Source: Nibribacter ruber
Lineage (GTDB): Bacteria; Bacteroidota; Bacteroidia; Cytophagales; Hymenobacteraceae
Length of the DNA stretch: 64,000 nucleotides
Direction of reading: 5' to 3'
Assembly (NCBI RefSeq): GCF_009913235.1
Contig: NZ_CP047897.1
Span: 2,541,001-2,605,000, forward strand
In this document: in pieces, positions 22,167 through 64,000 of the stretch
Position numbering within the stretch: the stretch's first letter is position 1
Layout of the letters: each line of letters opens with the position of its first letter
The notes under the pieces: generated by a model
The model's input: the letters and a program-made list of their open reading frames with translations, nothing else
The model's database searches: none
What the model was told of the DNA's origin: nothing
Program-made: the position numbers and the translations under genes

Positions 22167-22176
22167 CCGTTAGGCT

Positions 22177-23085
22177 CTACTCTTTCTTTTCATACACCAG
22201 CACCCCGTAGGCATCATAATGCTTGGTGAGCACGGGTTCGGCAGGGGCGTCAAAGGCAGATTCTGGGTACAGGAACTCATGCTGCAGGCGGCCTCTATAG
22301 TCATAGAAGTGAGACCAGGTGCCTACTTTGCGGCCTTTGTCATAGGTGCCGCGCCATTCCAGCTGCCCGTTTTCATAGAACTTGAGGTACTGGCCCTGCA
22401 CTTCGCCGTACTGGTACGGAATCACTTCTTTGATCTTGGTCTTGCCGGCGTCATAGTAAGAAATAACGGCGTCTCTGGGAAAACCCTTCTCATAGTGCAG
22501 CTTGCTGGCCAGGGTACTGTCCGTTTTAAAGGTCTCCCAGCGCAGGTGCTTGGTACCTACATAGAAATACCCCTGTTCAATGACCACGTCACCGCGCATG
22601 CGCGTGTAAGGACCATGCAGAATACGAGCCTGGTTGGGTTTTAAGGTGAAGTTGTAGGTGCGCAGCACGTCACGCTTCTTCACATCATAGTAGTATTTCT
22701 CTGGGGCATAGGGGTTGGGCTGTTGGAACTCGCGCAGGTAATGAAAGGTCTCCACAATCTGGTTTTTGCCTTTCCCCTGCCGCGCAAAGCCTTTCTTGAC
22801 GCGGTAGCCAAAGTACGCCTTCTTCTTTTTAGACTTCTTGCCGTCCTTTTCATCCTCGGCAAGGCTGTCCTTGCCCGCGGTGACCAGAGAAGGCATGGCC
22901 AGAGAATCCACCACCGTCAGCGTGTCTGCCGGCGAAAGGACCACCGGCTCCTTCTTGCGCTGCCAGAAGAAGATCTTTTTTTTCTCCTTGCCTATAATCT
23001 GTGCCTGAGCGGGGTCTGGCGCTGTCGCCCAAAAGGCCATGGCCACCACCAGCGCTTTTCCCCAGAATGAAATCCTTGTGTTCAT
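22177..23085 (-). CDS. Exported MORN-variant/YwqK-like repeat protein
   Basis: 302 residues with a signal peptide (cleavage near PAQA-Q, residue 29), a highly charged Lys-rich segment (residues 33-95), and a C-terminal set of repeats of the type YYDAGKTKIKEV, YGEVQGQYLKFYENGQLEWRGTY and GRKVGTWSHFYDYRG. These are MORN-variant/YwqK-like repeats, which form beta hairpins. Function unknown; periplasmic or cell-surface location inferred from the signal. Confidence 0.8.
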   Translation of the reverse strand: MNTRISFWGKALVVAMAFWATAPDPAQAQIIGKEKKKIFFWQRKKEPVVLSPADTLTVVDSLAMPSLVTAGKDSLAEDEKDGKKSKKKKAYFGYRVKKGFARQGKGKNQIVETFHYLREFQQPNPYAPEKYYYDVKKRDVLRTYNFTLKPNQARILHGPYTRMRGDVVIEQGYFYVGTKHLRWETFKTDSTLASKLHYEKGFPRDAVISYYDAGKTKIKEVIPYQYGEVQGQYLKFYENGQLEWRGTYDKGRKVGTWSHFYDYRGRLQHEFLYPESAFDAPAEPVLTKHYDAYGVLVYEKKE

Positions 23086-47573: not shown

Positions 47574-47625
47574 GGTTCTTTCTAAAACGAATGCTTAGAC
47601 AAGCCCTAGGCAAACCAAGCTTTCT

Positions 47626-48426
47626 TTACCAGGTAATGGGGTCATCCTCCTCCCAGCCGTCATCATAGGAGCTGGCCATATCTTGAAAGGCGCCTCTCTT
47701 GTCTTTCAGGGCGGCACGCACATGGCTTCGGTAGAGATAGGCCACGGCCAGGTCCTCGTTGATGTCCAGGGCCTCGTCCAGGTCTTCCAGGGCTTGGGTG
47801 TATTCCTCAAGTTTCAGGTGCACGTACCCGCGGTAGGCAAAGGCAAACTCCAGATTAGCGTTCATGGCAATGGCTTTCTCCAGATCTTTAAGAGCGCCGT
47901 CAAAATCTTGCAGATAGGCCTTGGTATGGCCGCGCTGGGCCAGGGCGTCATAGTAGTCTGGTTCCAGGGCCAGGGCCTGGTCTAAATCTGCAATGGCAGC
48001 CGTGTACAGGCCCAGTTCATGGTTGGCCATGCCGCGCATGTAGTAAAAATTGGCGTTGCTGCCCTTGTAGAGAATGGCCTGGTCAAACTTCTCCTTGGCT
48101 GGCAGGTAAAACCCACCCCTGAACGCAATCTGACCCAGGTTAAAATACGCAGACCCAATGTTAGGATTCAGGCGAAGGGCTTTTCTGTAATCTTCCTTGG
48201 CGGCGTTGAAGGCGTGCTTGTCAAACTTGGCGTTGCCGCGGTGATAATACGCCAGTGCGTTGACAGAGTCCAGGGCAATGGCCTTGTCCAGCTCTACAAT
48301 GGCATCGTCAAAAAGACCCTGGCTCACTTTGGCCGCCCCCTTGGCCAGAAAATCCTGCGCCGTCTGGCCGTAACCAGAAAAGTAGGTGCAAAGCAGAAGA
48401 AGAGAAAGTAAAATGCGGGGACTCAT
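47626..48426 (-). CDS. Exported TPR-repeat protein
   Basis: 266 residues: signal peptide (cleavage near GYG-Q, residue 21) and about six tetratricopeptide repeats (for example ALAYYHRGNAKFDKHAFNAAKEDYRKAL, given here as overlapping TPR helices across residues 57-85). Likely a periplasmic scaffold. It is similar in length, signal and repeat pattern to the TPR protein at 55026-55844. Ends in an acidic tail (DDGWEEDDPITW). Confidence 0.87.
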   Translation of the reverse strand: MSPRILLSLLLLCTYFSGYGQTAQDFLAKGAAKVSQGLFDDAIVELDKAIALDSVNALAYYHRGNAKFDKHAFNAAKEDYRKALRLNPNIGSAYFNLGQIAFRGGFYLPAKEKFDQAILYKGSNANFYYMRGMANHELGLYTAAIADLDQALALEPDYYDALAQRGHTKAYLQDFDGALKDLEKAIAMNANLEFAFAYRGYVHLKLEEYTQALEDLDEALDINEDLAVAYLYRSHVRAALKDKRGAFQDMASSYDDGWEEDDPITW

Positions 48427-51795: not shown

Positions 51796-51833
51796 CGTTT
51801 TTGGGCTGTTTTAGTCAAAACAGCCCAAAAACG
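51796..51833. repeat. 38-bp intergenic palindrome, copy 20 (covariant)
   Basis: One mismatch at the innermost pair; GGGCTG on the left is matched by CAGCCC on the right, a compensatory change relative to copy 10. 5 bp after a stop codon. Confidence 0.94.
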
Positions 51834-51835
51834 AG

Positions 51836-52150
51836 GAAATTAAAAATTAGAAATTATGAATTAGAAATTGGTTGAGATGTGGTGTCCCCGTTTTAGCCTG
51901 TTCTTCTGAAAATAAAGCCAAAAGCGGCAGTTGCCCTTGCTCCAAAGACCTCGTAGTGTCCAGAGGACCTGCGAGCGTCTCTGTGCCAAGGACGGTTACC
52001 AAACGTAGATTCCCCCTTAAGGGGCGAAGGGGTTGTTTATACCAGCAGATAAAACAGGCAAAAGTGGGCAATGCGTCAGAGACAAGGCGGTGCCTGGTCT
52101 CTACAAAAACCACGCATAACGTCCCCCTTTAAAGGGGGTAGGGGGATGAC
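51836..52150 (-). repeat. Composite dispersed repeat, copy B (~315 bp, inverted)
   Basis: Reverse complement of 41356-41672 by eye, at roughly 70-80% identity in the parts I aligned. The perfect hairpin CCCCCTTTAAAGGGGG is at 52122-52137, and palindrome copy 21 lies inside with the same 18-bp and 20-bp flanking spacers as in copy A. Confidence 0.8.
51889..51926. repeat. 38-bp intergenic palindrome, copy 21 (degraded)
   Basis: Many mismatches, shortened T run; recognisable by ends, size and its position within composite repeat copy B. Confidence 0.75.
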
Positions 52151-55974: not shown

Positions 55975-55985
55975 AGTTACCTGCC

Positions 55986-57134
55986 ATGCGCTTCGCCCTC
56001 ACCAACGGTACCATTTACACCGGTCATTCCATGTACCAAGACCACGCCCTGCTTTTTGAGGACGGCAAGGTGGTGGAGATACTCCCTCATACCCAGGTTC
56101 CCAAAGAGGCCACTCCCATAGACGCGCTGGGCGGTATCATTTGCCCGGGCTTTGTAGACCTGCAGGTAAACGGCGGAAACGGCATTTACTTCACCCAACA
56201 TCCTACGGTAGAAAGCCTGAACACCATTAGAGACGCGCACCTCCAGTTTGGCACCACCAGCTTTCTGCCCACGGTCATCTCAGCGTTTCAGGAAGTCATT
56301 CTGGAGACCATCACCGCCGTGCGGCAGGCCATGCAGGCAAACCCCAGCACGTTTCTGGGCATGCACCTGGAGGGGCCGTATTTCAGTCTGGAGAAGGCCG
56401 GCGCGCATGACGTGGCCTGCATCAGGACGGCCACGCATGAAGAACTGGATATTCTTTTAGCAGCCGGCCAGGACGTCATCAACTACCTCACCCTGGCCCC
56501 TGAATGCGTAGAAGAAAGCGTCTTGCAACGATTGGTGGACAGCGGGATTGTTCTGTCTGCCGGACACAGCATGGCCACCTATGACCAGGCCATGGACTTC
56601 TTTAAGAAAGGTGTAACGGCGGTCACCCACCTCTACAACGCCATGAGCGGCCTGGACACCAAAAACCCGGGACTGGCAGCCGCCACTTTAGATTATGGCC
56701 AAGCTTGGACGGGCATTATTGTAGACGGCGAGCATTGCCACCCCGCGGCCGTACGGTTAGCCAAAAAGGCGCTGAACGAGAAGCTGCTGTTGATTTCTGA
56801 CTGCGCGGCCTGCGTCAACTCAGACATTGAATACACGCAGTTCGGGAATTTCAGGTCATACTACCGCAACGGTCGTTGTGAAACCGAGGATGGGCGCCTG
56901 GCCGGCTCGGCGCTGACCATGCTCAAGGCCGTGCAAAACACCGTACAATTGGTGGGCCTGCCCCTAGACGAAGCCCTGCGCATGGCCACGCTGTATCCTG
57001 CGCAGGTCTTGAAGATGGAAGAAAAAGTGGGCCAGCTTGTTCCAGGAGCCTTTGCCAACATAGCAGTTCTCCACCAAGACTTGACTTTGCAGCAGGTTTG
57101 GGTAGACGGCCAGCCGGTTGCGCTGGAGGCATAG
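55986..57134 (+). CDS. nagA: N-acetylglucosamine-6-phosphate deacetylase
   Basis: 382 residues; removes acetate from GlcNAc-6-P, feeding amino-sugar breakdown or peptidoglycan recycling. Amidohydrolase-fold motifs are present: CPGFVDLQVNGGNG, the metal-binding HLEGPYF, LSAGHSMATYDQA, VTHLYNAMSG, VDGEHCHP and LISDCAAC with the catalytic Asp. Length is normal. No nagB or sugar transporter lies nearby. Confidence 0.95.
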   Translation: MRFALTNGTIYTGHSMYQDHALLFEDGKVVEILPHTQVPKEATPIDALGGIICPGFVDLQVNGGNGIYFTQHPTVESLNTIRDAHLQFGTTSFLPTVISAFQEVILETITAVRQAMQANPSTFLGMHLEGPYFSLEKAGAHDVACIRTATHEELDILLAAGQDVINYLTLAPECVEESVLQRLVDSGIVLSAGHSMATYDQAMDFFKKGVTAVTHLYNAMSGLDTKNPGLAAATLDYGQAWTGIIVDGEHCHPAAVRLAKKALNEKLLLISDCAACVNSDIEYTQFGNFRSYYRNGRCETEDGRLAGSALTMLKAVQNTVQLVGLPLDEALRMATLYPAQVLKMEEKVGQLVPGAFANIAVLHQDLTLQQVWVDGQPVALEA

Positions 57135-59582: not shown

Positions 59583-59643
59583 GTGACATGCACGTAAGAA
59601 CTAGCATCAAGCGAAGAAACCAACTTCCTACCCAACACCTGCC

Positions 59644-60576
59644 ATGAAAATCATCACCATCACGGTTAATCCCGCCCTAGACAAGAGCACCCGCCTGGAC
59701 AAAGTAGCCCCAGAGAAAAAACTGCGCTGCGAACAGCCTACCTATGAGCCCGGCGGGGGCGGCATCAACGTGTCCAGAGCCATCAAGAAACTGGGCGGCG
59801 AGTCGTGTGCCTGGTACCTGAGCGGCGGCGGTTCTGGCGAGTTGCTGGGACAACTGCTCAAAGAGGAAGGGGTGTCTTTTAGACAATTCAAATGCGAACA
59901 CTGGACCCGCGAGAACCTGATGGTCTATGAAACCGCCAGCGGCCAGCAGTTCAGGTTTGGGATGCCCGGCCCACCAGTTTCAGAGGCAGAATGGAAGCAG
60001 CTTCTGCAGGCTTTGGAAGAATTAGAGGAAACACCCGAGTTTGTGGTGGCCAGCGGCAGCCTTTCGCCGGGAGTACCCGATGATTTCTATGCGCAGATTG
60101 CCCAGATTGCCGTCAAAAAAGGATTTAAACTAGTGGTGGACACTTCAGGCGAGGCGCTCTTACAATCTGCCGGAAAAGGCATATACCTGCTCAAGCCTAA
60201 CCTAAGTGAACTGGCTGCCTTGGCTGGCAAGGAAAAAATCAACGCCAGAGAGCAGGAAGAATTAGCGCATAAGGTGATGGAGGAAGGCAAGAGCGAAGTA
60301 TTGGTGGTTTCCCTGGGTCCGCGCGGCGCCATGCTGGCCACCAAAGACGGCTTTGAGTACATCACCCCGCCCACCGTCCAGACAGAAAGTGCCGTAGGCG
60401 CCGGTGATAGCATGGTAGGCGGCATGGTTCTTAAACTATCGCAGGGGTGGCCTTGGTCAGACGTTATAAAATACGGCGTAGCCACCGGTACTGCCACGTC
60501 CATGACGCCTGGTTCAGAACTCTGCCGCCTACCAGATGTAGAAGAGATTTACGCCTGGCTAAAGGCAAGAAGCTGA
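59644..60576 (+). CDS. pfkB: PfkB-type 6-phosphofructokinase (ribokinase family)
   Basis: 310 residues of the ribokinase fold. The N-terminal text EKKLRCEQPTYEPGGGGINVSRAIKKLGG closely parallels E. coli PfkB (phosphofructokinase 2), and the anion-hole motif GAGDS places the catalytic base at Asp255. It phosphorylates fructose-6-P in glycolysis most likely; a 1-phosphofructokinase or tagatose kinase role is a lesser option. No sugar-PTS genes nearby. Start ATG at 59644. Confidence 0.88.
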   Translation: MKIITITVNPALDKSTRLDKVAPEKKLRCEQPTYEPGGGGINVSRAIKKLGGESCAWYLSGGGSGELLGQLLKEEGVSFRQFKCEHWTRENLMVYETASGQQFRFGMPGPPVSEAEWKQLLQALEELEETPEFVVASGSLSPGVPDDFYAQIAQIAVKKGFKLVVDTSGEALLQSAGKGIYLLKPNLSELAALAGKEKINAREQEELAHKVMEEGKSEVLVVSLGPRGAMLATKDGFEYITPPTVQTESAVGAGDSMVGGMVLKLSQGWPWSDVIKYGVATGTATSMTPGSELCRLPDVEEIYAWLKARS

Positions 60577-60654: not shown

Positions 60655-60792
60655 TCCTACCCTGTCTTTTGCAAGTACCGGCTATTGTAATTCTAGGTAT
60701 GCTTTCTTGTTTTCCTGCCAAACAAGAGGTAAACTTAATGGGGCAAAAATAGCCGCCCTGTTAACCTACTCGCATACCTAACAAACAAACAC

Positions 60793-62436
60793 TTGAAAAG
60801 ACGTGATTTTATAGGACTGACCGCCATGGGCGTCGGAGGGCTTATGCTCGCTGGCATCCCAACGTTCGGTCATGAGATTGACCCGGCCAGGGCGCTGGAC
60901 ATCATAGATCCAGCCTTGAAGAAACGCCTTGCAGATGTGGCCTTGAACGCGGCCAAAGCTAAGGGCGCCACTTACACAGACGTACGCATTGGTCGTTACC
61001 TGGCGCAGAACCTGTTCACCCGCGAGAAGCAGGTGCAGGGCATTAGCACCACAGAAAGCTACGGGGTGGGCGTTCGCGTGATTGCCAACGGTACCTGGGG
61101 TTTTGCCGCCACCTCAGATGTAAGCGATAAAGGCATTGCCAAGGCCGCCGAGCAGGCCGTGGCCATCGCCAAGGCCAACTCCAAACTACAGAAAGAACCA
61201 GTCAAGCTGGCTCCACAGGAAGGCTACGGCGAGGTAAGCTGGAGAACGCCCATCAAGAAAAACGCTTTTGAAGTACCCGTTTCTGAAAAGGCAGATCTGC
61301 TCCTGGCCGCCAACGCCGCAGCTTTGGCCGCTGGTGCTAACTTCGTGAATTCTGCCTTGTTCCAGATCAATGAGCAGAAGTATTTTGCCTCTACAGACGG
61401 TTCTTACATTGACCAGGACATTCATAGAATCTGGCCGAACTTTACAGTAACCGCCGTAGACAAAGCCTCAGGCAAGTTCAAAACCCGTGACGCCTTGAGC
61501 GCGCCTATGGGTATGGGTTATGAGTACCTGACGGTAAAAGCGCCTACCATGAAAGGCCCCGAAGGCACCAGCCTCATCGGCTATGATAAATACTATGATA
61601 TTGTGGCAGACGCCGGTCTGGCCGCCAAACAAGCCCGCGAGAAACTGACGGCCAAGTCTGTTTTAGCTGGTAAATATGATATAGTCTTAGACCCGAATCA
61701 CCTGGGCTTGACCATCCACGAAAGTGTAGGTCACCCATTAGAACTAGACCGCGTGCTAGGCTACGAAGCCAACTACGCCGGTACCTCCTTCGCGACCTTA
61801 GACAAGTGGAAAACCAAGAACTTCCCATATGGCAGCAAGCTGGTGAACATCTTCGCAGACAAAGTACAGGAAGGCTCTCTGGGCGCCGTAGGCTTTGACG
61901 ATGAAGGCGTGAAAACCAAGCGTTGGGACCTCATCAAAGACGGCACGCTGGTGAACTACCAGGCCACCCGTGACCAAGCCCACATCATAGGCGAGAAGGA
62001 ATCCCATGGCTGTTCGTACGCTGACAACTGGAGCTCGGTGCAGTTCCAGCGCATGCCTAACGTGTCTCTAGCGCCTGGCAAAGAAAAGCTGAGCGTAGAC
62101 GAGATGATTAAGGACGTGAAACGCGGTATCTACATTGCCGGTCGCGGCTCTTACTCTATTGACCAACAGCGTTACAACTTCCAATTTGGTGGTCAGCTGT
62201 TCTATGAGATCAAAGACGGCAAGATTGTGGGGCCCTTAGAAGACGTGGCGTACCAGTCTAACACCCAGGAATTCTGGAACTCTTGCGCCGCCATCTGTGA
62301 CCAAAGCGACTACCGCATGTTCGGGTCGTTCTTTGATGGCAAAGGCCAGCCCAGCCAGGTAAGCGCCGTATCACACGGCTCTGCCCACACCCGTTTCAAC
62401 GGTGTCAATGTCATCAACACTGGTCGTAAGATTTAA
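60793..62436 (+). CDS. tldD: TldD-family metalloprotease with twin-arginine signal
   Basis: 547 residues from a TTG start (60793). It begins MKRRDFIGLTAMGVGGLMLA, a twin-arginine-type signal with RRDFI, so this TldD is probably exported folded; classic TldD is cytoplasmic. The zinc motif HESVGH is at 309-314 and the cysteine/His region SHGCSYADNW follows. TldD and PmbA (TldE) form a heterodimeric protease with TldD as the metal-bearing half; the partner gene starts at 62923. In between lies a four-helix-bundle gene unit. Confidence 0.92.
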   Translation: MKRRDFIGLTAMGVGGLMLAGIPTFGHEIDPARALDIIDPALKKRLADVALNAAKAKGATYTDVRIGRYLAQNLFTREKQVQGISTTESYGVGVRVIANGTWGFAATSDVSDKGIAKAAEQAVAIAKANSKLQKEPVKLAPQEGYGEVSWRTPIKKNAFEVPVSEKADLLLAANAAALAAGANFVNSALFQINEQKYFASTDGSYIDQDIHRIWPNFTVTAVDKASGKFKTRDALSAPMGMGYEYLTVKAPTMKGPEGTSLIGYDKYYDIVADAGLAAKQAREKLTAKSVLAGKYDIVLDPNHLGLTIHESVGHPLELDRVLGYEANYAGTSFATLDKWKTKNFPYGSKLVNIFADKVQEGSLGAVGFDDEGVKTKRWDLIKDGTLVNYQATRDQAHIIGEKESHGCSYADNWSSVQFQRMPNVSLAPGKEKLSVDEMIKDVKRGIYIAGRGSYSIDQQRYNFQFGGQLFYEIKDGKIVGPLEDVAYQSNTQEFWNSCAAICDQSDYRMFGSFFDGKGQPSQVSAVSHGSAHTRFNGVNVINTGRKI

Positions 62437-62439
62437 CAT

Positions 62440-62878
62440 TAGTCGCGAGTCGTGAGTCTAGAGTTGCGAGTCTTTAAAAGTGAGAAATGAGCGATAGCAT
62501 TGTTGCTAAGAAGTCTTATAGTTTCGCTCTGCTGGTAATTAAGCTTTATAAACATCTGCAGACAGATCAGCGTGAGTTTGTTTTGGCAAAGCAGGTGCTT
62601 AGAAGCGGGACTTCTATTGGAGCCAATGTAGAAGAAGCATTGGGTACTCAAACAAAGGCTGACTTTAGACATAAGCTGGCCATTGCTCTCAAAGAAGCGA
62701 ATGAAACCAGTTACTGGCTCAGGCTTTTGAAAGACTCAGATATGATTTCAGCAAGTTCTTTCTCTAGCATTCACAGTGAATGCGAAGAGTTGATAAAGAT
62801 TCTGAAGTCCATTATCATCACTTCGAAAAGCAAAGAAGAAAAACCAACTCGCGACTCGTGACTCTAGACTCGCGACTA
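62440..62878. mobile_element. Putative mobile unit: four-helix-bundle gene in inverted 7-bp repeat arrays
   Basis: The left array (62440-62472) reads TAGTC then four heptads GCGAGTC, GTGAGTC, TAGAGTT, GCGAGTC. The right array (62846-62878) on the minus strand reads TAGTC, GCGAGTC, TAGAGTC, ACGAGTC, GCGAGTT. Both therefore begin TAGTCGCGAGTC from outside. The unit starts 3 bp after the tldD stop and ends 44 bp before pmbA. No target-site duplication is obvious. Confidence 0.65.
62487..62861 (+). CDS. Four-helix-bundle protein (23S rRNA intervening-sequence/S23 family)
   Basis: 124 residues, all helical, with the family hallmarks SYSFALLVIKLYKHL, QVLRSGTSIGANVEEALGTQTKADF and ALKEANETSYWLRLL. 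Relatives are encoded by 23S rRNA intervening sequences or occur alone, and Avd of diversity-generating retroelements shares the fold. The last codons (KPTRDS and the TGA) lie inside the right-hand heptad array, so gene and array move as one. The gene is more AT-rich than tldD and pmbA on either side. Function of stand-alone copies is not established. Confidence 0.9.
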   Translation: MSDSIVAKKSYSFALLVIKLYKHLQTDQREFVLAKQVLRSGTSIGANVEEALGTQTKADFRHKLAIALKEANETSYWLRLLKDSDMISASSFSSIHSECEELIKILKSIIITSKSKEEKPTRDS

Positions 62879-62922
62879 GAAAAGTAAAACAGTTACCTAC
62901 AACTGATAGACGTTATTTAAAC

Positions 62923-64000
62923 ATGGCAATATTATCAAAAGACCAAGCCGAGGCGCTTCTCAAAAAAGCACTTAGCTATTCAAAAGCCGATGAGTGCGAG
63001 GTAAACCTCAGCGGTTATAAAGGCGGAAACATCCGTTATGCCCGCAGTACGGTGAGCACCAGCGGCGAGGAAGAAAACATGTCCCTGGCCGTAGAGGCAA
63101 GATTTGGCAAACGCTCTGGCGTGGCCACCATCAATGAGTTTGATGACGCCTCGCTGGAGAAAGTAGTGCGCCGCGCTGAGGAGGTGGCCCGCATTGCCCC
63201 GGAAAGCCCGGAGTACGTGCCTATGCTGGGACCGCAGACCTACCTGCCTAGTAACGCGTGGTTCAAATCTACCGCCGACATCAACCCAGAGTACCGCGCC
63301 GAAGCCGCCCGCAAGAGCATGGCCCTGGCAGATAGCAAGAAATTGACATCGGCTGGTTTCTGGGAAGACCGCAGTGGCTTCAATGCCAAGATGAACTCCA
63401 AAGGCCTGTTCGCCTACAACCAAAGCTCAGACGTAGATTTCTCGGTGACTATGCGCACCGAGGATGGTACTGGTACTGGCTCTGGTTATGTAACCCGTGA
63501 TGTGAGTGACGTAAGCAAACTGGATACTGCCGCCGCCTCTGAGATTGCCGCACAGAAAGCCCTTGGCTCTATGAACGCCAAAGCCATTGAGCCCGGCAAG
63601 TACACGGTTATTCTGGAGCCTACCGCCGCCGTAGATTTGTTGCAGAACATGTTTGGGAGCATGGACGCCCGCTCTGCCGAGGAAGGCCGTTCGTTCCTGA
63701 GCAAAACCGGCGGTGCTACCAAGTTAGGAGAGAAGATGTTTGACGCCCGCGTGACCATCACCTCAGACCCAACCAACCCAGAAATCCCTACCTCTACCTG
63801 GGCCGGCGATGGCCGCCCGCATGAGAAGGTGACCTGGATTGACAAAGGCGTTATTAAGCAGATGCCATACTCGCGCTTCTGGGCGCAGAAGAAAGGTGTG
63901 AAAGGCCTACCAATGCCAGGCGGTTTCATCATGCAGGGCGGTACCCAAAGCCTGGAAGACCTTATCAAAGGCACCCAGAAGGGCATCTTGGTAACGCGTC
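62923..64000 (+). CDS. pmbA: TldD/PmbA-family protease partner (3' end outside window)
   Basis: First 359 residues, open to the right edge. MAILSKDQAEALLKKAL starts at ATG 62923. The text has the TldE/PmbA pattern: VEARFGKRSGVATINEFD, GKYTVILEPTAAVDLLQNMF and FWAQKKGVKGLPMPGGFIMQGG. No HExxxH motif is seen in the visible part, which fits the non-metal half of the TldD-PmbA heterodimer. In most genomes the two genes are adjacent; here they are separated by a four-helix-bundle unit. Confidence 0.9.
   Translation, partial: MAILSKDQAEALLKKALSYSKADECEVNLSGYKGGNIRYARSTVSTSGEEENMSLAVEARFGKRSGVATINEFDDASLEKVVRRAEEVARIAPESPEYVPMLGPQTYLPSNAWFKSTADINPEYRAEAARKSMALADSKKLTSAGFWEDRSGFNAKMNSKGLFAYNQSSDVDFSVTMRTEDGTGTGSGYVTRDVSDVSKLDTAAASEIAAQKALGSMNAKAIEPGKYTVILEPTAAVDLLQNMFGSMDARSAEEGRSFLSKTGGATKLGEKMFDARVTITSDPTNPEIPTSTWAGDGRPHEKVTWIDKGVIKQMPYSRFWAQKKGVKGLPMPGGFIMQGGTQSLEDLIKGTQKGILVTR

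Follow-up and report, generated by a model that had tools for sequence, protein, structure and literature searches.

In the window, by which we mean the whole 64,000-nucleotide stretch of Nibribacter ruber DNA analysed here, a gene of the 23S rRNA intervening-sequence (IVS) protein family is set between genes of the tldD and pmbA types. We consider it probable that the 439-bp unit carrying it belongs to a large class of insertion elements that measure only about 470 bp and are the intergenic counterpart of the 23S rRNA IVS. The layout of the class is an S23/IVP four-helix-bundle gene inside two inverted arrays, with 4-5 copies of a unit of 7 nt or, in some clades, 8 nt.

Results

Architecture of the element in the window

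The two arms of the element, each 32 nt long, are 84% complementary, with 375 nt between them (Table 1). We scored arms by comparing the 200 bases before the gene core with the reverse complement of the 200 bases that follow it, and set the cut at 12.0, a value equal to the 99th percentile among 335 control places from the same loci as our first set of relatives. The element reaches 19.5, above the maxima of the first (13.5, n=335) and second (16.5, n=261) control sets, in agreement with the original prediction of a gene bounded by inverted 7-bp arrays; the stop and last codons do fall within the right arm, as had been noted.

Table 1 Features of the element and of its host genes (window positions).
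Feature	Position	Strand	Remark
Upstream host gene, tldD type	60793..62436	+	Left arm begins 3 nt past its stop
Whole element, predicted RNA fold pairs both arms around the gene	62440..62878	+	Fold computed over 62437-62885
Left arm, tandem copies of the 7-nt GAGTCNN unit (TAGTCGC GAGTCGT GAGTCTA GAGTTGC GAGT)	62440..62471	+	
Four-helix-bundle gene, 124 aa, PF05635/TIGR02436 (S23/IVP family)	62487..62861	+	Profile matches; solved relatives 2rld, 2gsc
Right arm, inverted array of the GAGTCNN unit	62847..62878	-	Overlaps the gene end
Downstream host gene, pmbA type	62923..64000	+	Runs beyond the window edge

The element holds no second gene, and PF05635 is the sole Pfam match of the one it has. 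The proposed membership in the 23S rRNA IVS protein family is confirmed by profile scores of 102 bits for PF05635 (cut-off 33.8) and 111.7 bits for TIGR02436 (cut-off 24). TldD/PmbA domains were found in both host genes, and the lower GC content ascribed to the family gene is real (41.1% versus 54.3% in the two hosts). Domain profile searches detected no Y1 (TnpA-REP) transposase gene between the arms; mobilisation of the unit in trans, as first suggested, is possible.

Folding of the whole unit, a check proposed beforehand, gave a predicted RNA structure of -151.6 kcal/mol in which the arms pair around the gene (z -6.58; none of 100 shuffles as low). An Rfam search of positions 60700-64000 returned no rRNA match and one weak hit, at 19.8 bits against a gathering score of 49.

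Filled and empty tldD-pmbA junctions in the genus

The tldD-pmbA pair is present in all 16 genomes of the genus. In seven of them the gap measures 486-538 bp and contains an orthologous family gene with arrays; in the other nine it is 64-76 bp long, with neither family gene nor arrays. Empty junctions, which the original prediction had proposed to look for in close relatives, thus exist, and the element splits a pair of genes that otherwise adjoin. Within the genus, the gene was never found at this place without its arrays: all seven orthologues have them on both sides, the arm score of one (L096) being equal to the cut of 12.0 and not above it.

On the tree of flanking host sequence, the filled and empty states need four changes, and the window genome, which has the element, is placed as sister (support 100/99) to G007, which does not. 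Among the seven orthologues, dN/dS is 0.01-0.13 (dS mostly >1), so that selection maintains the protein. Genomes with the filled site have more of the GAGTC pattern (Mann-Whitney p 0.034, 7 versus 9 genomes), a trend that is not strict and that we take as weak. G007 has 32 matches of the pattern yet no GAGTC-type gene, so that the link between array load and gene is loose.

Inverted arrays as a rule of the PF05635 family

All five PF05635 genes of this genome are enclosed by inverted short-period arrays. Their units differ, being GAGTCNN, AAGACNN, the TTCGTTA type, the CAGTTAN type and an 8-nt TTTGAAGA type.

For the first set of relatives, 39 genomes were searched and 34 had a match. From 125 matches we set aside nine that were short or fragmentary and merged two fragment pairs (L148, L149), which left 114 loci, and 113 after L146, in which no domain was found, was dropped. 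Arm scores exceed 12.0 at 99 of these 113 loci, with a median of 20 against 8.5 for the controls; pairing the left flank of one gene with the right flank of another also gives a median of 8.5.

The second set joins the best 80 of 585 confirmed loci from named genomes, ranked by likeness to the L009 protein, to 14 loci from cyanobacterial plasmids, and 79 of its 94 loci score above 12. Among the best 80 of 585, those above 12 are 51/60 in Bacteroidota, 5/7 in Pseudomonadota, 2/3 in Acidobacteriota, 3/3 each in Bacillota and Thermodesulfobacteriota, 1/1 each in Ignavibacteriota and Planctomycetota, and 0/1 each in Chloroflexota and Methanobacteriota; the cyanobacterial plasmids contribute 13/14. 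In a further set, 28 of 30 loci pass (8 of the 30 repeat earlier ones), adding one Spirochaetota and one Chloroflexota plasmid to those passing.

Duplicates (L257 = L071, L258 = L073 and the 8 of the further set) were removed from the pool, which covers about ten phyla and includes the best 80 of 585. It holds 227 distinct loci, of which 196 score above 12, 187 above 13 and 143 above 16.5, the latter two values being the 99th percentile and the maximum of the second control set (n=261), both above the cut of 12. The best period, or lag, is 7 or 8 at 217 of the same 227 loci, against 94 of 651 controls, and also at 27 of the 31 loci in this pool that fail the arm cut. In a later sample made of the top-scoring gene per genome (n=20; G612, with an internal stop, was skipped and G479 taken), arms pass in 11, and all 20 have 7 or 8 as their best period. 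An Rfam search of 20 family loci with arm scores of at most 12 gave no match, and thus no known rRNA in any of the 20. The comparisons show that the inverted-array arrangement is general in the PF05635 family across bacterial phyla. A family gene over cut-off occurs in 220 of 296 sampled genomes of the phylum.

Specificity was assessed on 330 genes of up to 500 aa, from the window and 400 kb of G007 and G012. Twenty of them score above 12, and these comprise 18 flanked by a self-palindromic repeat (CGTTTTTGGCCTG... and variants), one GIY-YIG gene in an inverted repeat of its own and the window family gene; inverted short-period arms flank the latter alone. A defence library searched with two proteins gave no match, exact peptide patterns confirmed no relatives of the window protein in viral contigs, and the L009 protein was not found in phage records.

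Period, unit count and unit sequence

Of 276 array sides, 222 score best at period 7, 44 at period 8 and 10 at other periods; 20 of 436 control windows pass the array-side cut, 11 of them with period 7. On the tree of 110 proteins, from which the frame-broken L081, L148 and L149 were excluded, 96 proteins carry a period label and period changes 7 times. When each place is represented once (37 places of period 7 and 13 of period 8), it changes 6 times, and 500 shuffles never gave fewer than 8. The median number of units per array is nearly the same for both periods (4.57 for 7 and 4.56 for 8, p 0.57), while array lengths differ (32 nt and 36.5 nt, p 0.029).

The unit itself behaves otherwise. 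Non-orthologous relatives seldom share it, not even those with protein identity above 50% (a score >15 in 6.8% of 511 pairs); therefore, units change fast. Altogether, the protein tree and these pairs show period going with the protein clade, and unit sequence private to each lineage.

A common end TAGTCGCGAGTC, which the original prediction had expected around other family genes, was not found: the other four family genes of the genome have quite different units, and what is common is the period and the unit number. Of the mobile-hairpin reading as first formulated, the self-contained hairpin with a four-helix-bundle gene, inserted between genes, is well supported; the single shared end sequence has to be given up.

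Both arms of one copy change together between species, as the flanks of orthologues show. Among 51 orthologues in 8 groups there are 25, with 8 expected, in which no other right flank matches the left flank as well as the gene's own does; taken by itself, the tldD-pmbA group shows a small effect (2 of 7). Across eleven species, the L009 site has at least four units, every one of them in both arms. An earlier version of the test (31/49) was biased because the arms had been excised by their own match; it was discarded, and the full-flank test used instead.

Empty, gene-less and gene-bearing sites

Empty sites were also found on sister plasmids. In Nostoc sp. ATCC 53789, two plasmids with homologous gene rows carry different elements, each site being empty in the other plasmid. 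One element (L343), absent in L344 and L395-L397, is bounded by two copies of ATG, a 3-nt direct repeat, and measures 506 bp between them; the other (L344), whose corresponding site in L343 is empty, measures 418 bp, with TTCTA on both sides. A site at a TraM-type gene exists in three states: empty (L392, L393), with a gene-less hairpin of the GGGAACN type (L394), and with a gene-bearing element (L341), the last two having a nearly identical left junction. The cas6-cas4 element of Anabaena sp. 90 is absent in a Dolichospermum plasmid with flanks 98-99% identical, which has other sequence there instead. Finally, where this genome (G000) has the L009 family gene, G007 carries a stand-alone GIY-YIG gene (PF01541, 47.9 bits) in its own inverted repeat (L238:6382-6685). 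Such comparisons show sites that are polymorphic for empty, gene-less hairpin and gene-bearing states; movement of the element is inferred.

On plasmids, several elements lie among defence genes (L338, L342, L380, L385, L386). Their neighbours are cas6-cas4 (two plasmids), cas2-cas1 (the element on the opposite strand), drmD-MmeI and restriction subunits S/R. The left array at L342:1110-1450 is very long, with about 300 bp of ACAGGGAACAGGTG-type units, and adjoins cas6.

Position within host operons

Orientation could be counted at 155 of 171 places, the others being without a neighbouring frame of at least 90 aa. Both neighbours are on the strand of the family gene at 122, both on the opposite strand at 15, and mixed at 18. 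Measured from the stop codon of the upstream gene, the outer end of the left arm lies a median of 2 nt further on (n=172; quartiles -3 and 11). Elements have a median length of 471 bp (quartiles 435 and 515). This arrangement points to sense-oriented elements that would be carried in operon messages; selection alone could be the source of the sense bias and of the position after stops.

There are 246 locus pairs with homologous flanks on both sides, meaning that many loci are inherited in place; therefore, recent movement is rare at those places. Within genomes, 24 pairs of at least 50% protein identity were observed against 28 expected, and therefore there is no sign of within-genome copying; a rule of one copy per protein clade per genome, which we had considered, is equally unsupported by these numbers. 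At certain intergenic places the protein clade differs by species (L012, L099, L106 and L107, L111, L114; the L013 group and L076), as if some places were reused by different clades.

Dispersed arrays and a case found through its repeats

Arrays are no chance feature of the window element, since they occur at other places and in other genomes too. In this genome, the GAGTCNN unit gives 45 overlapping matches of three units (GAGTCNNGAGTCNNGAGTC), and the reversed pattern gives 0. Only 5 of 28 GACTCGCGACTC sites have a facing partner within 900 bp, and three of these five are one place. Most dispersed arrays here are therefore single and not paired ends, and the element model explains them less well. 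Elsewhere in the genus, most array pairs inspected have the facing orientation of the arms, and some pairs enclose a palindrome. In the gene-free G012, 200 kb contain 3 arrays of period 7 or 8, one of which was judged a typical unit, against 6 in 200 kb of G007.

In the window, a period-7 array of the AATTAGA type stands alone at 51833-51873, with no family gene, next to a palindromic repeat; an AATTAGA-like unit borders a family clade in other species. Several intergenic places bear a self-palindromic repeat (CGTTTTTGGCCTGTTTTC / GAAAACAGGCCAAAAACG and variants), often adjoining solo GAGTC arrays; it is found at the flanks of window genes 22176-23085, 47625-48426, 55985-57134 and 59643-60576.

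For Xanthomonas, passages of PMC4692102 (Rehm et al.) describe GGGAATC arrays that mostly have four units, form 70 convergent pairs in one genome and 75 in another, and in general show no association with mobile elements. A three-unit GGGAATC search of 369 genomes of one class was positive in one (G413). Picked by these repeats alone, G413 has a single PF05635 match, and this, as predicted, sits between GGGAATC-type arrays, separating apparent accB and accC genes (names read from the translation). The match covers 64 of 106 family positions, and the gene may be broken. G413 also has a gene-less pair of GGGAATC arrays, whose 8 array-adjoining bases are those of the gene-bearing element, and a third site has them with one mismatch; the gene-less arrays look as internally deleted copies would.

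Discussion

Three other explanations were weighed. According to the one we find very improbable, the unit is an old operon member with a regulatory hairpin, an attenuator or stabiliser, and not mobile. Seven species do have it at tldD-pmbA and its protein is under purifying selection, but the reciprocal filled and empty sites disfavour such a history, 9 of the 16 genus genomes lack the unit, sister G007 included, and related elements lie between unrelated genes in many phyla, on plasmids too. A DNA transposon of the MITE type would account for the inverted ends, the size near 470 bp, the insertion polymorphism, the gene-less forms and the TTCTA on each side of one insertion. On this view, a transposase of the host or of an IS would act on the arms as terminal inverted repeats; the protein would be a passenger or bind DNA in an accessory role, and the RNA fold would be a by-product. 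Three things make this rather unlikely: the ends have no sequence in common, and we know of no transposase that fits such ends; the sense bias is strong (122 versus 15); and the direct repeat at the other clean insertion is just ATG, of 3 nt.

The heptamer arrays might also be an independent repeat, self-spreading or born of slippage, with PF05635 genes settling or surviving between two of them as one cargo of several. Gene-less arrays are common in the same genomes and mostly single in this one, some pairs enclose a palindrome instead of a gene, the GIY-YIG gene of G007 occupies the site of a family gene within its own inverted repeat, and G012 keeps its three arrays with no family gene at all (six in G007). 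Nevertheless, we judge the idea unlikely: periodic inverted arms surround the family gene alone among 330 genes tested, period tracks the protein clade, and just one of the three arrays of G012 looks typical.

REP/RAYT systems consist of a Y1 transposase gene flanked by inverted repeats, with many gene-less repeats per genome and fixed-palindrome ends. The element resembles them in having a gene between inverted repeats and many gene-less repeats in the genome, and differs in lacking a Y1 transposase gene and in ends set by period, not by a fixed palindrome. With IS and MITEs the window element shares terminal inverted repeats; no common end sequence was seen among the elements, and direct repeats of 5 and 3 nt were seen at two insertions. 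Avd, the accessory protein of diversity-generating retroelements (DGRs), is a distant relative of the family protein. The L009 protein weakly matches phrog_3206, 'Avd protein of DGR' (25.6 bits, E 1.5e-5), which the window protein does not match; DGRs, to our knowledge, are without arrays of the heptamer sort.

The heptamer repeats of cyanobacteria are known as STRR. Like the published repeats of cyanobacteria, Xanthomonas, Beggiatoaceae and Geobacter, the window element has degenerate tandem 7-nt units, of which there are many per genome. Passages of PMC4692102, PMC4679880 and PMC2700814 describe paired repeats as few in Nostoc, with 1 inverted among 169 TAACTGA sets, and 49 four-heptamer elements in Geobacter metallireducens, some within genes; in both respects the elements described here differ. 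The scarcity of pairs in those repeats does, however, parallel the mostly single dispersed arrays of this genome, and like them it speaks against arrays being paired ends. The words 'four helix' are absent from the main text of these three papers. In open-licence PMC, at the level of titles, abstract beginnings and selected texts, no link of heptamer arrays to PF05635 was found; where four-helix-bundle genes appear in passages of PMC8700078 and PMC5524665, they are merely listed, as strain-specific or in a predicted phage region.

The closest relatives are the 23S IVS of Coxiella and Leptospira. As described in passages of PMC4990558, the Coxiella IVS is a 428-nt stem-loop that holds the S23p gene and is cut by RNase III; the window element has the same protein family, a similar length (439 bp) and, in its predicted fold, the same stem of about 30 bp formed by inverted ends around the gene. 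Unlike the IVS, it lies between protein genes past a stop codon and not in a 23S rRNA helix; the arms of the intergenic elements, in which periodicity was assessed, are tandem 7- or 8-nt arrays. The protein and the hairpin are thus as in known IVS; the site, the periodic ends and the breadth are new.

If the window unit is an insertion element of the IVS kind, it would be read through from the operon promoter, and its RNA would fold into a stem of about 30 bp around the gene. RNase III or a similar enzyme could cut this stem, by analogy with what is reported for the 23S IVS, which would free the gene message, leave the messages of the neighbours intact and render the insertion nearly harmless. 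Processing at the arms is suggested by the fold predicted for the RNA, by the orientation in sense and by the precedent of the IVS. The Xanthomonas family protein is described as a toroidal homopentamer in passages of PMC4990558, and the solved relatives 2gsc and 2rld have five chains each. A protein ring might bind the array with one subunit per unit, which would fit 4-5 units at either period, and might help to copy, move or renew the arms; among the dispersed gene-less arrays, some may be internally deleted derivatives.

More tentatively, and with somewhat less than even confidence, we put forward a wider proposal. It describes a mobile class whose ends would be set by period (7 or 8 nt) and unit count (4-5) instead of sequence, with each subunit of a pentameric ring reading one unit, probably in RNA or in a single strand. 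Its arms would be renewed jointly and its insertion would be in sense, just past stops; it would have seeded the unexplained heptamer repeats of cyanobacteria, xanthomonads and Bacteroidota, and the 23S IVS would be its best-known, stranded members.

The label '23S rRNA IVP' appears in a figure legend on CRISPR adaptation modules in PMC10910872, and an element inside cas operons would be an ordinary reason for its presence among them. Ends defined by spacing rather than by sequence, if true, would be unusual for any mobile element. PF05635, a family of unknown function, would gain a matching nucleic-acid feature, and the IVS elements would be tied to the heptamer repeats of cyanobacteria, Xanthomonas and others.
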